Below, in pieces: positions 8,485 through 34,994 of a stretch of DNA of 46,534 nucleotides. Made by a program: the position numbers and the translations under genes. The stretch is from Isotricha intestinalis (Eukaryota > Ciliophora > Litostomatea > Vestibuliferida > Isotrichidae), in NCBI GenBank assembly GCA_023807065.1, contig JAJJLU010003606.1, forward strand, positions 1 through 46,534. The letters run 5' to 3'. Under the pieces are notes generated by a model that ran no database searches, was not told where the DNA came from, and saw nothing but the letters and a program-made list of their open reading frames with translations. The number at the start of each line of letters is the position of its first letter. Positions within the stretch are counted from its first letter, which is position 1.

Positions 8485-11400
8485 TTAAAAACCACTTTCT
8501 TCACTATTATTTATTTCTTCTTTAATTTCACTTTCACTAATAGTTCGAACTTTATTATAAGAAGAAATATTACCAACAATCCCTTTATTCTTTAAAGTAT
8601 TTGAATTTTCAAAATCATTGTAACTTACATTATCACTTCCAATATTTTCTTCAATTTCACTGTTACTTTTTTTATTTGGAATTAATTTTTCAATATGAGT
8701 TCCAGTTAAACTATCTTTAACACTATTTTTAATAATTCCACTTAAATTTGCAATACTACCTTTATTATTACTTCCAATTTTTTTATCAATATTATCAGGT
8801 TTTTTGTCAAAATTTCCACTTATATCATATTCAAAATCATTATATTCTTCAATTTCTTCGTTTTCATCTTTTTCGTCCTTTAAATTATTACTTTCATAAT
8901 CCACATTTTGGAATTTATTAATGCTTTTATTTTCATTATTGTATTGTGATTTAGCAATACTCTCTTCAATTTCTTCTTGAATTGAATTACTGGAAGGTTT
9001 TTTAATGTAATTATTATTTTGATTTAAAATTCCTCCTATTCCACTTATTGGTTTATGAGAATTAGTATCTGAATTTACATTTAAATATATATTATCAATT
9101 GTATTCTTTGGGATTTCTCTTGATTCTATTGTAATATTCTTTACACTGAAATTATCACTATTTTTCATTTCATTTGTAGATGGTAAATTTTTTATACTTT
9201 GTGTTATTTCCTCCTTGTTTTGTTTTTCTTTATTTTTTGAGTTATTTATTTCATTATCATTATTATCATTAATATTACTATATCTTGTATTATTATTATA
9301 TTCTATACTATTTTTTTCTCTATAAATAGGTGTAAATTTATTTTGAGAATTATTCATTGTTTGATTACTATTTTCTACTGCTGATCTTTTTATATCATCT
9401 AAATATATTGATTGAGATATTTTTTCTTTGCTAAATTCTTTTGAATTTTTAATTAAATCTTTTTCAAGGTTTTTGTAATTTTGTTCGTAATCATTGTTTT
9501 CAATTATTTGATTATTTTCTTTATTCATTATAATCACATTTCTATTTTGTTCTTCTTTATTTGGAATTCTATAATTATTTCCTAAATTATCTTTATATTT
9601 AATTTCATCATCTTCTAAATTTTTGTAAATTAAATTATTATAAGTATTATTTTCTTTCATTTTGTCTATTGTTTCTTTATTAAGTATCACTACAGGAACA
9701 TTATCATTGACTAAATGTTTAAATTGAGTTCTTAATTCAGAATTTAATTTATATTGCTCTTTTTCTAAATCTTCTAAAACTTTTCTCCTATCTTTAAAAC
9801 CAGATAATTTTTTGGCCAAATTTGAAGTTAATCTTTTTGAAATTGGTTGATTAATATTATTTGATTTTTTTTTATTTCCTTCATTACTTTTTTTATTTAA
9901 AATTTCCGATTGTTGAATTGGCATTGTTCGATTTAAATTTTGAAAATTATCAGTGGAACTATAATTCATTAGATCATTATTATTACTTTTATTTTGTTTA
10001 TTATATTTCCCTCTTTTTAAGTCTTTTTGTAATTCATTTATAGTTTGTTTTAACATTGTTATTTCATTATTATTTTTTTTTATTATTTGTTTATATTCAG
10101 AAGGAATTTCACTATTTATTTTATTTAAATTTGATTTTTCCATTGATTCTCTTAATACAATAGATTTATTTATATTATCATAATTTTGATATATTGGAAT
10201 ATTTCTATTTATTTTATCTAATTTATCTTTTAACTCTACATTTTCATTTATTGTTTTTGAATATTGATTTTTTATATCATCAAACTCTTTTTTTAAATTA
10301 TTAATTTCACTTTTTAATTCATTTTCATCATTTTTATTATTGCCTGTTTCATTATTGTTTGTATCATCTTTGATATAAATATAATTATTTTTTTTTTCAT
10401 TTGAAATATTTTTAAAAAGACTTCTCTCATTATTTATTTTTTCTTTTTCTTTATTTAATTGTGATTCATAGTTATTCTTCATTTTCTCAATTTCATTTTT
10501 AATATGTGAATTTTGAGTTTCTTTCAAATAATTTAATTCTTGTTCTTTAAGTTTTAAAGTTTCTTTTTGAATTTTAATATCATCTAATTCATTTTTAATT
10601 TTAGTATCCATTAAATTTTCTTGATTATTCAAAAAGTTTATTTTATCTTCAATTTTCCTTCTATCATCATTTAATTTCATTTCATATTCTTTTTCTAATT
10701 TTAATTCTCTTTCTTTTAATTCATCTAATTGGTTTTTTAATCTTTCTTCTCTTTCTTTAAATTCTTTTTCAATTTCTTCCCTTAACTTTAATATTTTTTC
10801 ATTATATTTTTTATTTTCTTCAATCCTAACTTTACTTATTTCATTAACTTGAATTCTATTTATTTCATTTTTTAATTGCTCTTTATATCTTTTATCACAT
10901 TCTTCTTTATATTTTAAAAATTTATTTTCAGTTAATTGAGAAGAAAAAATTTTATCTAAATTTAATTTTTTATTATTTTTTTCTTCTATTTCTTTTAATT
11001 TTTCATCAATGTTTGAAAAATCATTTTTTTTAATATCATTATTAAATAAATTAGATTTTTCAATTGGATTTGTTAATAAATTTATTTCAGTTTGACATGA
11101 TTCTTCATTTTTAAAAAAAGAAGTATTTTTTTTTATCAAATAATAAATGAAGGTAGAACTAAAATTATATGAATTAATTGACATTGAATCTTTACTTTCT
11201 AATAAAATATTATTTTTTTCATTTTTAAATTCTAAGGCATTAATTTTTAAAAAATTAATTATTTCACTTTCAGTATAAGGAAGATTTGTATTATAAAGTA
11301 GATCTTTTGCTTCATTATAAAAAGATGAAATTGAATATGATAAATTCATTTTAGTTAAAAAATCTAATATTAAACTATAACTTAAACGTAATAAAGAATA

Positions 11401-11559
11401 AATATTTGAATTTTTATTTAAAGGTCCAGTTTTTATTAAGGAAGAAGCTGTTGTACTTTGACTTTTCAAAGTATCAAGAAGTTTATTTTGTAAATATGTT
11501 TTTGTTAAATTTAACATCCCATTTTTTTCTATTGTTTGAATTAATGGTGTTTCTGACAT
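8485..11559 (-). CDS. OFD1-like LisH/coiled-coil centriolar protein
   Basis: 1024 residues. The N-terminus matches the OFD1 layout: a short helix with LQNKLLDTLK near 20-33, a LisH-like segment (LILDFLTKMNLSYSISSFYNEA near 65-88) and a following ESCQTEINLLTN segment near 150. Long Lys/Glu-rich coiled coils occupy about 185-520. The rest is low-complexity Asn/Ser/Glu sequence. OFD1/FOPNL-type proteins sit at the distal centriole/basal body and are needed for cilia, which supports a ciliated host. The family call rests on the LisH plus coiled-coil order and local similarity; a different centriolar LisH protein is possible. TAA stop; next gene on the same strand starts at 13006. Confidence 0.65.
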   Translation of the reverse strand: MSETPLIQTIEKNGMLNLTKTYLQNKLLDTLKSQSTTASSLIKTGPLNKNSNIYSLLRLSYSLILDFLTKMNLSYSISSFYNEAKDLLYNTNLPYTESEIINFLKINALEFKNEKNNILLESKDSMSINSYNFSSTFIYYLIKKNTSFFKNEESCQTEINLLTNPIEKSNLFNNDIKKNDFSNIDEKLKEIEEKNNKKLNLDKIFSSQLTENKFLKYKEECDKRYKEQLKNEINRIQVNEISKVRIEENKKYNEKILKLREEIEKEFKEREERLKNQLDELKERELKLEKEYEMKLNDDRRKIEDKINFLNNQENLMDTKIKNELDDIKIQKETLKLKEQELNYLKETQNSHIKNEIEKMKNNYESQLNKEKEKINNERSLFKNISNEKKNNYIYIKDDTNNNETGNNKNDENELKSEINNLKKEFDDIKNQYSKTINENVELKDKLDKINRNIPIYQNYDNINKSIVLRESMEKSNLNKINSEIPSEYKQIIKKNNNEITMLKQTINELQKDLKRGKYNKQNKSNNNDLMNYSSTDNFQNLNRTMPIQQSEILNKKSNEGNKKKSNNINQPISKRLTSNLAKKLSGFKDRRKVLEDLEKEQYKLNSELRTQFKHLVNDNVPVVILNKETIDKMKENNTYNNLIYKNLEDDEIKYKDNLGNNYRIPNKEEQNRNVIIMNKENNQIIENNDYEQNYKNLEKDLIKNSKEFSKEKISQSIYLDDIKRSAVENSNQTMNNSQNKFTPIYREKNSIEYNNNTRYSNINDNNDNEINNSKNKEKQNKEEITQSIKNLPSTNEMKNSDNFSVKNITIESREIPKNTIDNIYLNVNSDTNSHKPISGIGGILNQNNNYIKKPSSNSIQEEIEESIAKSQYNNENKSINKFQNVDYESNNLKDEKDENEEIEEYNDFEYDISGNFDKKPDNIDKKIGSNNKGSIANLSGIIKNSVKDSLTGTHIEKLIPNKKSNSEIEENIGSDNVSYNDFENSNTLKNKGIVGNISSYNKVRTISESEIKEEINNSEESGF

Positions 11560-11659
11560 TTTATTTTATATTTTAAATAATTGTTTTTCAAATATAAAAT
11601 AAAAAACTAAATAAATATTATTAATTTATTTCATTATATATATTAATTAAATATTACAT

Positions 11660-13006
11660 TTATTTCTTTTTTAAAGATTTTCCATTTAAAGTAGAATTAT
11701 TGACACTTAAACTAGAATCTCTTTTTGATAAGCTACTATTATGATTAACATATGCATCTATAATTTTTTGCTTATATTTACTTCTACTTGTTGATGGAAA
11801 ATTATTAATTATATTATATAAAATATTACTATTATTTTGACTTTTACTGCTATAGGTTGGAGATTTTATTCTGTTTTTATATCTTAAAAGAATTAAGTCT
11901 TCTTTATTAAAAGGAATTTTAATTTTTGAATTATTTGGATTTGTAATGTTACTTTTTTTATTTTCATTATTATTATTATTATTATTATTATAATCATTAT
12001 AATTAATTTTAACATTATTAATATTACTGTTGTTAGTTGAATGTTTTGATAAAGTAGAATTTAAAGAAGATTTAATTAAATTATTATATGATTTATTAAA
12101 TGGACTTCCTATTAAATTACATTTTGATTTTTGGCATTGTCTAACTTGTTTCATATTTAAAACAATATTAGAATTTTTTTTATGTTTTTGATTTTTATTT
12201 TTTTTCTTAACTTTATTATTATTATTTATAGAAATAGAAGCACTTTTATTATTACGATGATTTGTTTTTTTATTATTTTCTTTTGAATAATTTTCATTAA
12301 TAGTTCTTTGACTATAATTATTGATTCTTCTTGTTATTGAAGATAACTGTTTAATTGTATTATTTTCTTTTGATTTTGATATATTTGAAGATTTATTTTC
12401 TTTTTCAGATGATAAAGTTGAATCTTTTGTATTTTCTAATTCTTTAATTTTTTTTTGTAGTTTATTTATTTTTTCTTCTTTTTCTTGTATTATTTTTTCA
12501 TATTTTTCTATTATTCCCTTTAAATTTGAATTTTCTGCTCTTAGTATTAATATTTCATTTTCTTTTCTCTCATTTTTTAGAAATTCCCCATCATCATATT
12601 TAAATTTTATTTTCATTTCTTCAAATTCATCTTCCATTTCCATATAAGCGGCAATTTCATTTTCTAACATATCAATTTTTGTTTTTTTTAAAAAATTTTG
12701 CTGAATATAATATTTTTTTCCTTGTTCTAAGTTTAATAAAGTTTTTTTAAATTGATTGTTTTCTCTTTCTATTATTTCATGAATGATTATATCAGTAGTT
12801 AGTTTAACATTTTTTATTAAAGTATTTAAATTATTAATTTCTTCATTTTTGATTTTATCTATATTTATTTCATATACATTATTAAAATTATTTATTATTT
12901 CTTTGTATATCTCTTTAAATATTCTAATATAATCTTTCGGATTTTCATCGTTTAGATTTTCATTATTTTCAAATTCAAAATTTTCAATTTCATCATTTTC
13001 ATTCAT
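11660..13006 (-). CDS. coiled-coil protein of unknown function
   Basis: 448 residues from the ATG at 13006; the frame is open two codons upstream only through a TTG. An acidic N-terminus (about 1-30) is followed by a predicted coiled coil (about 85-195; Glu/Lys heptads such as ENEILILRAENSNLKGIIEKYEKI), then a basic Ser/Asn/Lys-rich tail with short Asn runs. No catalytic motif, signal peptide or membrane segment. It lies just upstream of the OFD1-like gene on the same strand, and a cytoskeletal or basal-body role would fit, but that is guesswork. TAA stop. Confidence 0.6.
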   Translation of the reverse strand: MNENDEIENFEFENNENLNDENPKDYIRIFKEIYKEIINNFNNVYEINIDKIKNEEINNLNTLIKNVKLTTDIIIHEIIERENNQFKKTLLNLEQGKKYYIQQNFLKKTKIDMLENEIAAYMEMEDEFEEMKIKFKYDDGEFLKNERKENEILILRAENSNLKGIIEKYEKIIQEKEEKINKLQKKIKELENTKDSTLSSEKENKSSNISKSKENNTIKQLSSITRRINNYSQRTINENYSKENNKKTNHRNNKSASISINNNNKVKKKNKNQKHKKNSNIVLNMKQVRQCQKSKCNLIGSPFNKSYNNLIKSSLNSTLSKHSTNNSNINNVKINYNDYNNNNNNNNENKKSNITNPNNSKIKIPFNKEDLILLRYKNRIKSPTYSSKSQNNSNILYNIINNFPSTSRSKYKQKIIDAYVNHNSSLSKRDSSLSVNNSTLNGKSLKKK

Positions 13007-13012
13007 TTTCAA

Positions 13013-13350
13013 ATAATTAATTATTTTATAAAAATTAATAAGTTTAAATTTAAAAATTATAATGAAACAAAAAAAAAAAGATTCCTATGAAAAGATGAAA
13101 GATAGAAAGTATTTAGAGAAAATAATATAACATTTTATATTTTAATTGAAGATTAAGCATAAAATCAATATAATATATTAATATTTAAATTAAGAAATTT
13201 TATAAATTATTAAATTATTATTAACATAATAATATTTAAATTTTTAATTTTTTTAATATTAAAAATATAATTTTTAAATATATATATTATAGTAAATTAA
13301 AAACAAATTCTTTTAAATAATAAAACATTTGAAATACTAAATTTCCTAAA
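13013..13350. other. intergenic region
   Basis: AT-rich stretch between two minus-strand genes, holding the 5' flank of the coiled-coil gene and the 3' flank of the short cyclin. No other feature is visible. Confidence 0.5.
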
Positions 13351-14928: not shown

Positions 14929-17494
14929 TTATTCATGTTTATGTTTTTCTTTATATAATTCCTTCAAATTAATAAATATTTATCAAAATACTCCCTTCCA
15001 ATTATTAATATTTTACACACTTAATTATAAAAATTATTTTACTTCAGGCTTTTTTAATTTAATATAATACACACTATAGATTTATTTTAAATAAAATACT
15101 TTCTAAAATATTAAATTAATTTACTTCCTAATTATATTAAAGAAATAAAATACATCCTTCAAATTAAAGATTATAATACATCCTAATAATATTAATTTAT
15201 TTTATACTCCCTTTAAAATAATACAAAAAAATTACACACTAACATATAAATAATCTTTTTACAATCTAAAATATTAATCAATCATTAACATACTATATAA
15301 AAATTATATATTTTTATACATTCAAATGTTAAATATTATCTTACCAACTATAATTGTTAATGAATTATTATCTTTCTTTCTTTTTTTTATTATTATTAAA
15401 TACTCCCTAAAATTTATTTGATTATTGTTATACTTCCTATAAATTATAAATTTTTTTACATTCTTTTTAAATAATTTTTAATTTTACCCACTAATTCTAT
15501 CATTAAATTTATCTTATTTTCAATTGTGGTTTAAAAAGTTAATTATACCCACAATTATTTATAAGATTATATATTTTACCCACTTTTTTTAAATTAAAAA
15601 TTTACTTCCTTAAAATAATTTGCTTATTGTACTTCCTACTTTTTATTTTAATAAAAAACATCCTTAAATTATAAAAATTTTTGATTTACTTCCTAAAGAT
15701 AAAAAAACATCTTACCCATTCCAAAAATTATTTAAAATTTCAATTTACTATCTTAATTTAATTTATTTATAAGAATTACAGGCTATACTTTTATTAATTG
15801 ATAATACTTCCTTGAATTAAAAATTCAAAATACTTCCTATCCACAATCAATTATTTAAATACATCCTTTTAATTATAAAATATTTTTACTCCCTTTTTAT
15901 TAATAATTATTTATATACTGCCTTAATAATTAATAAATTTTTTTACCCACTTAAACAATAAAATCTTATATTCTTACAAACTAAAAAATATCTAATATTA
16001 TTTAACTTGCTAAAATAAATAAATAGAATTAACATGCTAAAAATATAAAATAAATATACTTTCTATTATTATATTAATTAATTTACGCACTTAATCAATA
16101 ATACATATCTTACTTTCTTTAATTAAAAAAAAAAATACTGACTTTTATTGTTAAATTTTAATTACACACTAAAATAATGAAAACTAATATACTCTAAATA
16201 TTAAAATGATTATTAACCTTAATTCCCAAACAAAATCTTTATTTTCTACTTTACTATTATCAATTCTTAACACAGGTAAAATAACATTTCCTTCTATTTT
16301 TAATCTTTCTTTAATTATAGAGAGACATTTTATAGTATATAATTTGAAATTATTTTGATTATCATTTCCAAAAATATTTGAATTTTCTTGAATGGTTCTG
16401 AATCTTTCGATAAATGTATATATTTTTTCTTTCGTTTGATTTATTTTATTTAAATAAATTTCTATTTCTTTTGTAAGTTCATCAATTTGTTTTAGTTCAT
16501 TTTTTGAAAATCCAATATAATTAAAAATATAAATTTTATGAGAATTTGTGGAATGTTCTTTCAAACAAGATTCACAAACATTTTTTTTACAAATAGAACA
16601 ATAACCAATGATATTTTTTGAATGATTTTTACATTCATTTATAAATGAAGGAAAATTTAATAAATCTAATTTATTAGAACTAACATTATTAGTAAAAAAA
16701 GGATGCTCAAAATATTTTTCCCATGAAATTCTTTTATTAACATTTATTTCTAACATTTGAGAAACTAAATCATTTAAATCTTTGTCATGAATTATATTTA
16801 ATTTTTTTTTTGATTCAATTTGTTTCAATATATTATATTCATTTCCAATATAAGGATATTCACGAAATAACAATTTATAAATTATTATCCCCAAACTCCA
16901 AATATCACTTTTTAATGAAATTAATTTATTATTTCCCTTTAACACTTCAGGAGCCATTGTATTAGGAGTTCCACTTATACTTAGATTTCCTATTTTACTT
17001 CCATCTATTAATTTACTCAAACCAAAATCAGAAAGTTTAAAACAAATTTCATCAATTCTTTTTTTATTTACTGATAATAAAATATTTGAAGGTTTTAAAT
17101 CACTATGAAAAATTTTTTTTTCATTCATTTCTTTAAAACATTTGTTTAAATCTATTAAGATTTTCCTAATTTCATCTATTGATAATGGATTTTCCCTTAA
17201 TTTTAAATAATTATCCAATGAAAATAAGCATAATTCCATTATTATATAATATGAATCAGGACTTTGGTATGTGTCTATTAATGAAATAGAATTTTGTGAT
17301 TCTAATTTTTTCATTATTTCTATTTCTTTTAAAATATTTGTTTCTGAAAAGGAAATCCTTGATTTTTTTATTTCTTTAATTGCAACATAATCTCCTGTTT
17401 TAATATTTTTTGCTTTATATACATCAGCAAATGTTCCAGAACCAATAATTTCTTTTTGTTCAAAAATTGACCATATATCAGTAATTTTTTTCAT
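14929..17494 (-). CDS. protein kinase with B-box and metal-binding-like tail, spliced from a microexon array
   Basis: Exon 1 is 17494-16193 (434 codons). Kinase domain: GSGTFADVY at 18-26, Lys40 in VAIK, catalytic loop HSDLKPSN at 130-137 (Arg of HRD is Ser), DFG at 156-158, APE near 181; probably active. A B-box zinc finger follows at 288-319 (CKNH, CSIC, CESC, H, H), then a coiled coil at about 330-370. The frame seems to end in TAG at 16186-16184, but a GT intron starts at 16192 and is followed by 43 microexons (16168 to 14992) and a terminal exon 14961-14929 coding 10 residues and TAA. The joined product is 488 residues. The piece 16217-16194 (24 nt, GT..AG, in frame) may also be an intron, leaving a 1-nt exon at 16193. 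Kinase and B-box are certain; the spliced 3' half is inferred from frame, phase and motif regularity. Confidence 0.7.
14962..16192 (-). other. array of 44 tiny introns and 43 microexons
   Basis: On the minus strand the motif AG-NNN-GT recurs throughout. Introns are 22-30 nt; 38 of 44 are GT..AG. Microexons, 5' to 3', by middle base: 16167, 16140, 16115, 16088, 16061, 16035, 16008, 15979, 15948, 15920, 15891, 15864, 15835, 15809, 15781, 15750, 15717, 15691, 15661, 15634, 15607, 15581, 15550, 15519, 15489, 15461, 15435, 15405, 15378, 15346, 15321, 15291, 15264, 15237, 15209, 15181, 15155, 15126, 15101, 15072, 15043-15048 (6 nt), 15018, 14993. Read in phase 0 there is no stop. The first nine encode C, S, K, C, K, H, Q, F, W; microexons 34, 40 and 42 encode Cys. 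Non-standard ends: donors AT at 15517 and GA at 15376; acceptors TG at 15552, 15521 and 15323 and AA at 15719. Confidence 0.75.
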
Positions 17495-17961: not shown

Positions 17962-18519
17962 TTAACCAGTATAATGCAACCATTCATAATAGGGTTTATC
18001 TTTAATATGAGAATAAACTCTATCTTTCACTTCAGGTGAATGACCAGTAACCATAGCATTTTTCCCTCCAACAGTAACAAACATAGCATGAGTTTTACTG
18101 TCATCACAATCAGTTTTATGATAAATAATAACATCTCCTTTTTGAATATATGAAGGAGGAGGCATTTTTTTTCCACATTCTCTTTTCCATTTGAATTTCT
18201 GAGTTAGACATTTACTTAAATTTCTAGAACCTAATTGAACTCCACAACTAAAACTTTTACAAGGAGAACCTTTTAATATTTCATGACCCCCTTCAATTAG
18301 ACATTGACTTACAAAATTTGCACAATCTCCTCCTCCATGAGGATAATTACAAAATGAATTTCCATAATAACCATATGGAGTGCATTTATTTCTTCCACTT
18401 CCACATTTATGATTTATTTTTTTATAATGTTTATATGCATATTCTACTCCTTTGTTTCTGTCATATTTTGTTAATGATAAATTGAACAGTAATAAAGAGA
18501 GAATTATATGAAACTTCAT
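17962..18519 (-). CDS. secreted Amidase_6-like cysteine hydrolase
   Basis: 185 residues from the ATG at 18519, which begins a clean signal peptide (MKFHIILSLLLFNLSLT); an in-frame ATG at 18549 would put ten basic residues before it. The mature part opens with YDRNKGVEYAYKHY, then GGGDCANFVSQCL with Cys66 as likely nucleophile, GDVIIYHK, and THAMFVTV with His144. This order (YxRxxAVxYA, DCxNFVSQ, GDVI, HxxxVT) is the Amidase_6 pattern of the NlpC/P60-like papain fold, best known from bacteria. About nine further cysteines suggest disulfides. Secretion or lysosomal targeting plus this fold would fit digestion of bacterial wall peptides by a bacterivore, and bacterial ancestry is possible. Fold call good; substrate inferred. 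Confidence 0.75.
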   Translation of the reverse strand: MKFHIILSLLLFNLSLTKYDRNKGVEYAYKHYKKINHKCGSGRNKCTPYGYYGNSFCNYPHGGGDCANFVSQCLIEGGHEILKGSPCKSFSCGVQLGSRNLSKCLTQKFKWKRECGKKMPPPSYIQKGDVIIYHKTDCDDSKTHAMFVTVGGKNAMVTGHSPEVKDRVYSHIKDKPYYEWLHYTG

Positions 18520-18549
18520 TTTTTTAATAAAAAATTTTTTGATTTTCAT

Positions 18550-32912: not shown

Positions 32913-33189
32913 TTAATTTTTAAATTCTAAAATGAAGTCAAAAAAGACATTTAAAAGTGGATATGGTTTTCCAGATTTTGATTTTAAATAATTTATAAAT
33001 TTTTCATTTAAATTGATTGAATTAAACTTTAGTTTTTTTACTCCATAATATTCAAATAACTTTAATGTAAAGATTGTATTTGTAAATTTATTAAGAGTAA
33101 ATTTTAAAATTCTTGTTTCCTCATTAAATGAAATAATATTAAAAATATCCGTTTCTTTATTTAAATGTTTTGAAATAAATTCTTTATTT
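32913..33189 (-). other. terminal coding exon of the kinase/B-box paralogue
   Basis: After an acceptor TTTTTTCCTAG at 33190, the minus strand is open for 91 codons to TAA at 32915-32913, with ordinary coding composition (e.g. GVKKLKF, GKPYPLL). There is no start codon near its head, so it is not a gene alone. Its first base completes a codon, which agrees with exon 1 ending after two bases of a codon. It shows that the array lies between two true coding exons. Confidence 0.75.
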
Positions 33190-34994
33190 CTAGGAAAAAA
33201 TTAAATATTATTTATACATCCTATTCATTATTATATATTAAACTCATTATCTTTTTATTATAAATATATCTTATGTTCTATAATTTGTTCTAAATATTTG
33301 TTACTCACTTTTGATTTATCATTAAATTTTACTTTCTTTCATTAATTAAGGTATATTACTCACTGTTTATTTAATTATTATAATATTAAATCTTAATCGT
33401 TCTTACTTCCTATTTATTAGTATAATAATTTTACTCACTATTTATTATTATTTATTATTTACTCTCTATTCTTTTACAAAATAAATCTTACTCACTATTA
33501 ATTTATTATTTATATTTTACTCACTATTTATTTATTATTTATGTTTTACTCACTATTTATTAATTATTTATATCTTTCTCACTTCTAATAATTACATATA
33601 TTTACTCACTGTTTATAATAATCTATATGTTTTACAAACAATTATTTATTATTTATATATCTTACATACTATTTTTAATTAATATTTTATACTCACTATT
33701 TATTTATCATTTAATATTTTTTACTTTCTATTATTTATTATAAATATTTTACTTCCTATTGATTATTTTATATCTTACTTATTATTCAATTATTAAATAT
33801 ATATCTTATGAACTATTCATTTTATATATATATATCTTATAATTCTATTTCAATTCTTTTGTTAATCAATTGTTTATATGCTGAATCATTTAAATCTATA
33901 AATTCTAATTCTTCTTCTATCATTACATTATTTTTTATATTTTCTAAATAGTTAATATAATAATTTTTGAAATTATTATCATCATCATTAACATAAATAT
34001 CTTTATTTTCTTTATTTTTATTCACCCGATCAAGAAATGAATTGATTTCTTTTTTTATCTTATTTATCTTTTTTAAATGTTTATCTATATCTTCATATAA
34101 TTTTTGTGTTTTATATATTTCCACTTGAGTCATTCCAATTTTATTTAAAGGAACAAATTTATGATTACAATGATAATGTAAGCACTTTAAACAAAAATTT
34201 TTTTTACAATCATTACAATATCCTTTAATTATTTCATCATCAATTTTACATTTTAATGGTTTTTCTTGAAAAAAACAATTATTAAAATAATCTTCCCAAT
34301 TAATTCTTTGATTTATATCAACACATAACATTTTATTCAATAAATCATTTAAATCATTATTATTAGTTTTCTTTAATTCTTTTTCTAAGTCAATATCTTT
34401 ATTTAATAAAATTTCTGTTTTACCATCAAAAGGATATTTTTTGAATAAAATATAATATATTATTATTCCTAAACTCCAAATATCATTTTTACTATTCAAA
34501 TTTTTTTCTTGTGTAATTTCAGGAGATATTGAAAATATAAAATCACTTAATTTAATTGTTATTTTATTTATTTTATTTAAACATATTAATATATTTGATA
34601 ATTTTAAATTACCAAAAATAATATCTTTATTTTTCAAATTTTGTAATGTATTATTTAGTTGGATTAATATTTCTTTTAATTCTTGAATTGATAATCCTTC
34701 TTTTCTTATTTTTATATAATCTCCTAAATTTATTAAACATAATTCCATCACGATATATAAATAATCTTCAGTATTTATTATTTCTATAATTGAAACTAAA
34801 TTTTCTTCGGAATTTAATAATTTCATGAGCTCTAATTTATATAAAAATTTATCATCAATTTTATATTTTAATTTATTAACTTTTTTAATTGCAACATAAT
34901 TTCCATTCTCTTTATTTTTTGCTTTAAATACTTCACTATAACTTCCTGAACCAATTTTACTGAAAATTTTATATTTTTTTAATTCATTTATCAT
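32913..34994 (-). CDS. pseudokinase with B-box, spliced through a microexon array
   Basis: Paralogue of the gene at 14929-17494. Exon 1 is 34994-33841 (384 codons + 2 nt): glycine loop GSGSYSEVF at 15-23, Lys37 in VAIK, B-box at about 249-278 (CKID, CNDC, CLKC, H, H) and a coiled coil at about 285-320. The catalytic loop is FGNLKLSN (127-134), without the HRD Asp, and DFG is DFI (151-153), so it is probably inactive. The continuous frame stops at TAA 33839-33837, but an array of 3-nt exons follows and leads to a terminal exon 33189-32913 (1 nt + 91 codons + TAA) that is open only in the phase set by exon 1. The joined product is about 496 residues with an acidic Asp/Glu/Asn linker. Kinase and B-box seen; spliced end inferred. 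Confidence 0.7.
33190..33840 (-). other. array of 21-22 tiny introns and 20-21 three-base exons
   Basis: Introns are 23-29 nt (one of 44) and each exon is three bases, centred at 33811, 33780, 33754, 33726, 33694, 33667, 33637, 33607, 33580, 33551, 33522, 33493, 33464, 33436, 33408, 33361, 33334, 33306, 33276, (33249) and 33219. Eight of these exons are TGA, yet in phase 2 (imposed by the two leftover bases of exon 1) they give GAT or GAA/GAG codons and no stop. The exon at 33248-33250 would create TAG, so 33274-33221 is better read as one 54-nt intron. Non-standard ends: donors AT at 33840, 33809 and 33274, GA at 33578; acceptors AA at 33782 and TG at 33639. Confidence 0.7.

Follow-up and report, generated by a model that had tools for sequence, protein, structure and literature searches.

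The microexon genes (MEGs) of schistosomes contain exons of 6 to 36 bp, according to the part of the source cited here (PMC5825161). In the Arabidopsis gene APC11, a constitutive 1-nt exon can be spliced, and 3-nt exons are known as alternative exons (PMC4674806, in the portion cited). Exceptionally small spliceosomal introns are described for Stentor, a ciliate, in the cited excerpt of PMC9505925. Tiny introns and micro-exons are known, then; protein domains encoded by successive one-codon exons appear to be new as far as our searches went, and no earlier report of arrays of one-codon exons was found in the open-access literature. Here, we analyze arrays of tiny exons in a 46,534-nt stretch of DNA, referred to as the window, and in related genes of the assembly. 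Judging from sequence, the first of these arrays (array 1) very probably consists of about 45 likely spliceosomal introns, whose single-codon exons would join a kinase/B-box exon to a short last exon.

Arrays in the window

Array 1 follows an exon that encodes a protein kinase domain and a B-box (Table 1). This exon ends with ...WEL-AG, and intron 1 splits the codon begun by AG. The array is composed of AT-rich pieces split by triplets, mostly as AG-NNN-GT units, and positions 14929-16218 contain 37 minus-strand copies of the strict motif, mostly at a spacing of 25 to 31 nt. Across the whole window, runs of at least four such motifs at 20- to 40-nt spacing are found on the minus strand only, at array 1 and at 33.4 to 33.8 kb. 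A sequence-only three-unit model scanned over the window found two arrays and nothing else.

Arrays were delimited with a trained parser that permits GT, GC, GA, or AT donors and AG or TG acceptors and is biased toward 3-nt exons; a variant without AT donors splits several arrays. Array 1 obtained a score of 328, and the highest score among 100 order-1 resamples was 25.5. Within the 286.5 kb examined, 19 chains scored >30, the lowest at 43.5, and one resampled copy reached 16.2. Because the parser favors 3-nt exons, the spacing between an AG and the GT that next follows it was also measured independently of the parser. In 12 arrays, this distance was exactly 3 in 574/1,287 cases, 2 in 7, and 4 in 6, while reversed sequence gave a distance of 3 in 42/806; codons starting with AG would account for the 93 cases at distance 1. 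A chance AT-rich repeat is ruled out by the resample scores and the peak at 3. The regular minus-strand AG-NNN-GT series with pieces of 22 to 30 nt, first described in an earlier note on this DNA, is borne out by the parse, the resamples, and the parser-free distances.

As parsed, array 1 has 42 exons of 3 nt, plus GAATGG and CCTGAA, each 6 nt long. Homology favors reading the first parsed 3-nt exon as a 1-nt exon, A, which phase 0 also needs, and the count with homology becomes 41 exons of 3 nt, with a pair of 6-nt exons and a single 1-nt exon. The 42 exons of 3 nt and one of 6 nt given in the earlier note are right to within one or two units. GT or AG ends are missing from 6/45 pieces, with four TG acceptors, one GA donor, and one AT donor. 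Joined in phase 0, the exons contain no stop and run into the TAA-terminated last exon, as had been claimed; the other two frames contain 2 and 6 stops. The predicted product of array 1 is (R)CSKCKHQFWAGDEEPIEWEDEEWWKWNEGKLNYICGDDEKCPECG, and HQFWAGDEEPIEWEDEEWWK is an example of a tryptic peptide predicted to span array codons. Left unspliced, the kinase frame stops at 16186-16184, within the array. Adjoining the kinase gene is a minus-strand Amidase_6 protein (PF12671, 2.8e-14; window positions 17962-18549) with a hydrophobic N terminus.

The second array of the window (array 2) lies downstream of a paralogous open reading frame whose B-box, at 20.2 bits, falls under the 24.1 cutoff. Its parse is less clean than that of array 1, with odd lengths in 2/19 exons, and it contains 8 stops in frame 0, 1 in the phase-2 reading, and 1 in the remaining frame. 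The TGA triplets of array 2 were considered as stops, which is ruled out by the long last exon being open in phase 2 only; in phase 2, TGA-TGA is read as GAT. By reading of the parses, related last exons follow the arrays of the loci C506, C519, C545, and C1149. The phase varies among arrays, and the length of the one-codon exon is constant.

TABLE 1 Positions of the array genes of the window and of the longest array read
Feature	Position	Strand	Description
First exon, protein kinase + B-box	16218..17494	-	Pkinase 4.9e-57; zf-B_box 25.7 bits (cutoff, 24.1)
Array 1	14962..16217	-	45 intron-like pieces (22-30 nt) around 44 tiny exons
Predicted 1-nt exon A	16193..16193	-	Completes Arg codon AG-A; AG-A-GT at the matching place in paralogs
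6-nt exon CCTGAA	15043..15048	-	Pro-Glu of CPEC; 6-nt exon also there in C741, C1946, C924, C148, and C826
Last exon, ELYKEKHKHE-stop (TAA)	14929..14961	-	Phase 0 open; alignable with the final exons of C741, C826, C1946, and C148
Paralogous kinase/B-box open reading frame, upstream of array 2	33840..34994	-	Pkinase 3.2e-36; 5′ junction approximate
Array 2, as parsed	33190..33778	-	20 pieces; 19 exons, of which 17 are 3 nt long (many TGA) and two have odd lengths; phase 2
Last exon of gene 2	32913..33189	-	91 codons after one codon-completing base
Array of C1849, longest read	9234-13031 (C1849)		128 pieces, 125 one-codon exons

Conservation of codons and pieces among paralogous arrays

In the 57.3-Mb assembly, a kinase/B-box query had 134 matches, with some of them being parts of one gene. 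Arrays were present in 13/51 kinase/B-box stretches (49 fetched and 2 in the window, some ended by contig ends). Family members with LRR-like, WD40-like, or MORN-like tails, as read from their translations, have long open frames and lack the array. In total, arrays were read at 16 loci of the assembly.

Six arrays, namely that of the window (W1) and those of C741, C1946, C924, C148, and C826, share WEL, then a codon split around the predicted 1-nt exon A, and then Cys. The same six encode CxxCxxQ(F/Y)(W/Y)xGxxxP ... ICxDxxxCPxC and can be aligned codon for codon, with P-x of CPxC forming a 6-nt exon in 6/6 and with length differences that amount to whole codons, save for a few odd parses. Individual splice sites vary: C741 has GA as its first donor, and in C1946, a GAG acceptor precedes exon A, and the Cys codon TGC lies between a TTG acceptor and a GG donor. 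A seventh array, C1616, has no WEL yet starts with AAG-A-TGT, as in the W1 type. The last exons of W1, C741, C826, C1946, and C148 share one open phase and can be aligned; that of C924, outside the last-exon alignment, is by reading likewise open in phase 0. Several parses hold odd-length exons, and C924 and C546 were each parsed as two chains.

CxxC and CPxC motifs occur in the encoded tail, and the product of array 1 is predicted to be a zinc-ribbon-like tail. The best zinc-ribbon match was Zn_Ribbon_1 (E value of 0.0065; 16.7 bits against a cutoff of 25), and no Pfam model scored above its cutoff on the encoded tails. Searches of a protein collection returned no homologs of these tails, and genome searches returned no uninterrupted copy of them; the informative one among these returned C826's own last exon alone. 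No related loci were found in the viral contigs scanned.

Five arrays, giving ten pairs, were compared in both codons and pieces across their first 15 codons, with one mis-parsed C148 exon excluded. Identity at codon positions 1, 2, and 3 was 0.70, 0.82, and 0.60, respectively, and exon identity was 70.5% for homologous versus 32.2% for nonhomologous exons. In piece interiors, the corresponding values were 0.142 at matching places and 0.099 elsewhere, a slight residue that is far below the exon signal. C515 is a copy, 93% identical, of the final part of the C826 array, and both single-base indels fall in pieces; 12/15 exons are identical, and of the three that differ, two lie outside the motif and one is the x of ICxD.

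Stops were also counted by frame. Nine phase-0 arrays contain 0 stops in 534 codons, compared to 30 and 77 in the other frames, and seven phase-2 arrays contain 3 stops in the phase-2 reading, compared to 28 and 12 in the others, under a phase grouping that was made with the frames in view and that homology and last exons support for the W1 type only. Three short phase-2 arrays (C545, C506, and C1149) each decide no frame by themselves. Piece lengths modulo 3 are distributed 251/240/208, and 674/683 parsed exons have a length that is a multiple of three, a length class that the parser favors. From these comparisons, selection appears to act on the codons and not on the pieces. Because codons, not pieces, are conserved between the compared gene copies, these genes are predicted to have dozens of tiny introns removed by splicing, 128 of them in the case of one gene (C1849).

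Splice signals and the spliceosome

Among the 699 pieces of the 16 arrays, 653 start with GT, 28 with AT, 16 with GA, and 2 with GC, and 675 end with AG and 24 with TG; these counts come from a parser trained on such ends, and the parser-free distances agree with them. AAG occupies positions +3 to +5 in 25/46 non-GT donors versus 60/653 GT donors, as if a stronger donor compensates for the missing GT. Parse errors or decay probably account for some of the TG acceptors and odd exons. Branch sites would be difficult to recognize in pieces this rich in A and T. The AT donors take the form ATAAG (28/699; for example, in C826, in C148, and at window positions 15547-15521), often with similar following sequence, and are possibly one mutated unit that spread.

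The genome encodes spliceosome components, with U6 at two places (108 bits) and PRP8 with a PROCN domain (762 bits) in a 2473-aa frame that is open under the standard code. The earlier reading of the AT-rich pieces as introns and of the triplets as phase-0 one-codon exons is supported by the codon-by-codon match of paralogs with near-unalignable pieces. Further backing comes from the frames, the codon-position pattern, the whole-codon length changes, the more frequent AAG at non-GT donors, U6, and PRP8.

Array genes across the genome

To cover the whole assembly, a pattern of two triplets around an A/T piece of 24 or 25 nt was searched, with the reversed pattern as the control. There were 77 matches to the 24-nt pattern versus 0 reversed and 63 matches to the 25-nt pattern versus 2 reversed. 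These matches group into 66 places, 33 of which have at least two matches within 2.5 kb. In the arrays read, 45 pattern matches represent ∼746 pieces, so the genome may hold ∼2,300 such pieces. On the basis of the pattern searches, the architecture seems to be present at several dozen places, and parts of at least a dozen genes are cut into single-codon fragments.

Three of the arrays read have upstream exons unlike the window kinase. The upstream exon of C1849 reads like a putative ADP-ribosyltransferase. On the minus strand of C546, next to a telomere, the gene is cut into one-codon exons from the fifth codon onward, and the third, C94, is a phase-2 array. Neighboring pieces differ in their likeness from array to array: in C826 and C1616, adjacent pieces are alike far above shuffled sequence and adjacent codons are rarely identical, and in C546 and C94 the pieces show no resemblance.

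The minus-strand array of C1616, which reaches past the contig start, contains 25 pieces that are ≤2 mismatches from one 27-nt sequence, while the codons between them differ. A genome-wide intron family was considered as the source of these introns and is ruled out for the one intron tested, all 25/25 genome matches to which (≤2 mismatches) fall in the C1616 array. The combination of near-identical introns and differing codons suggests that array introns are multiplied or homogenized locally while the codons stay distinct. C1616 also encodes 30 consecutive codons without a charged residue, Asn, Gln, or His; its best 19-residue window has a membrane-helix-like hydropathy of 2.1, and a helix is predicted.

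Ordinary genes and genome context

Conserved ordinary domains were used for comparison. No internal stop was found in 148/150 Ras domains scored (from 621 candidates) or in 13/14 proteasome matches, in a domain search that puts whole domains first and may therefore undercount interrupted ones. These domains are almost uninterrupted, and the arrays do not represent the extreme end of a genome that is rich in introns throughout. Two Ras domains (C1380:10498-11019 and C771:12232-12753) are ∼39 nt longer than usual and have internal stops; the extra sequence is perhaps ordinary introns. The sequence examined yielded two to four weak candidates for ordinary introns, not exceeding dinucleotide controls.

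GGGGATT/AATCCCC repeats are present at 4/19 contig ends viewed (one partial and one irregular) and at the end of C546. The window is an entire contig, and its positions 1-20, AATCCCAATCCCC, are telomere repeat with one irregular unit. Telomere-capped contigs span 12 to 46 kb and look macronuclear. For comparison, the litostome Muniziella has a (CCCCAAT)n telomere, the standard code, and introns of ∼100 bp at 0.62 per gene, as given in the cited part of PMC11316547. The standard code is consistent with the open PRP8 frame and Ras domains here, and the telomeres and general features likely fit a litostome ciliate, with the gut as its likely habitat.

Discussion

If array 1 is spliced, the spliceosome would remove each 22- to 30-nt piece one by one, and removal would proceed by intron definition, with a donor recognized just 3 nt past the previous acceptor. 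The same codon conservation would be expected from any precise removal, including removal from DNA, whereby the pieces would be short ciliate internal eliminated sequences and the assembly would include germline or unprocessed copies. The organism is probably a ciliate, as this explanation supposes, but the piece ends follow GT...AG with donor-like compensation and the telomere-capped contigs have a macronuclear look. Moreover, a pointer-type repeat would place the opening dinucleotide of a piece again just behind that piece, yet 0/44 exons of array 1, the array checked, begin with GT. DNA elimination is for these reasons very unlikely. Any mechanism that ignores the pieces would likewise conserve the protein, and ribosomes might skip them in translation (bypassing) with the RNA left uncut. 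Bypassing elements are known from mitochondria and have other signatures, however, whereas the pieces here match spliceosomal signals at their ends in a genome that encodes a spliceosome, and we regard bypassing as extremely improbable.

Two further explanations would deprive the triplets of a coding role. The kinase frame reaches a stop at 16184 and some splice sites look degraded, which would suit a noncoding relic, either retained with a premature stop or excised whole, as a single large intron between the WEL exon and the last one. Such a relic is very unlikely in view of the codon conservation between paralogs, the codon-position pattern, the absence of stops in the phase-0 arrays, the nonpolar run of 30 codons in C1616, and the interruption of C546 starting at its fifth codon. 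Tandem Repeats Finder reports weak periods of 25 to 29 nt at array 1, and units within array 2 and C1616 are similar, as in an AT-rich minisatellite or protein-binding array with incidental AG-NNN-GT spacing. Yet the triplets are the conserved part between paralogs, the resamples score far below the arrays, and the reversed patterns are nearly absent from the assembly, leaving this explanation with the least probability of all, close to none.

Under the preferred reading, one-by-one splicing of the pieces, arrays may gain and lose whole units, because recombination or slippage between neighboring AT-rich introns would add or drop one codon and keep the frame. The arrays could have originated either through duplication of units whose codons diverged later or through introns being copied or converted locally while the codons between them were kept. 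Taken further, protein domains might be built from single-codon cassettes, with intron recombination or copying inserting, deleting, or swapping exactly one amino acid; the arrays would then act as engines of evolution, safe from frameshifts, in the tails of gene families that are expanding, and the ∼2,000 introns that they may hold would be a large share of the genome's introns. We put this broader proposal forward tentatively and consider it possible but rather doubtful.

If the arrays are spliced, each gene would require tens to >100 consecutive correct splicing events across one-codon or one-base exons, which would be a test of the minimum exon size and of whether intron definition suffices alone. 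Gene models of such ciliates would also be too short: the public kinase homologs mostly stop at or soon after WELR, with 7/8 homologs of the window kinase ending in it or ≤20 residues past it and the eighth having WEYR.

Introners are near-identical intron copies dispersed through a genome. C1616 resembles introner families in its near-identical intron copies but differs in that its intron is confined to its own array; with near-identical introns between different codons, it would, if spliced, offer a natural system for studying intron multiplication. Noncanonical GA donors are reportedly common in Eurytemora, which is said to use GA and GG donors (PMC5714493), while GA donors are a minority here (16/699), beside the AT donors (28/699). 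The Stentor paper, in the excerpt cited, concerns intron size and spliceosome parts and mentions no one-codon exons (PMC9505925), the feature of the arrays here. Unlike the isolated micro-exon of APC11, as presented in the portion cited (PMC4674806), the tiny exons of these genes form arrays. A secreted or exposed product and alternative splicing are features of MEGs; the window's gene encodes a kinase. The arrays are like MEGs in that much of the coding region comes from many short exons with lengths that are multiples of three, as the cited part of PMC5825161 describes, and unlike them in that 655/683 parsed exons are 3 nt long, tens to >100 of them are consecutive, and the introns are ∼25 nt.
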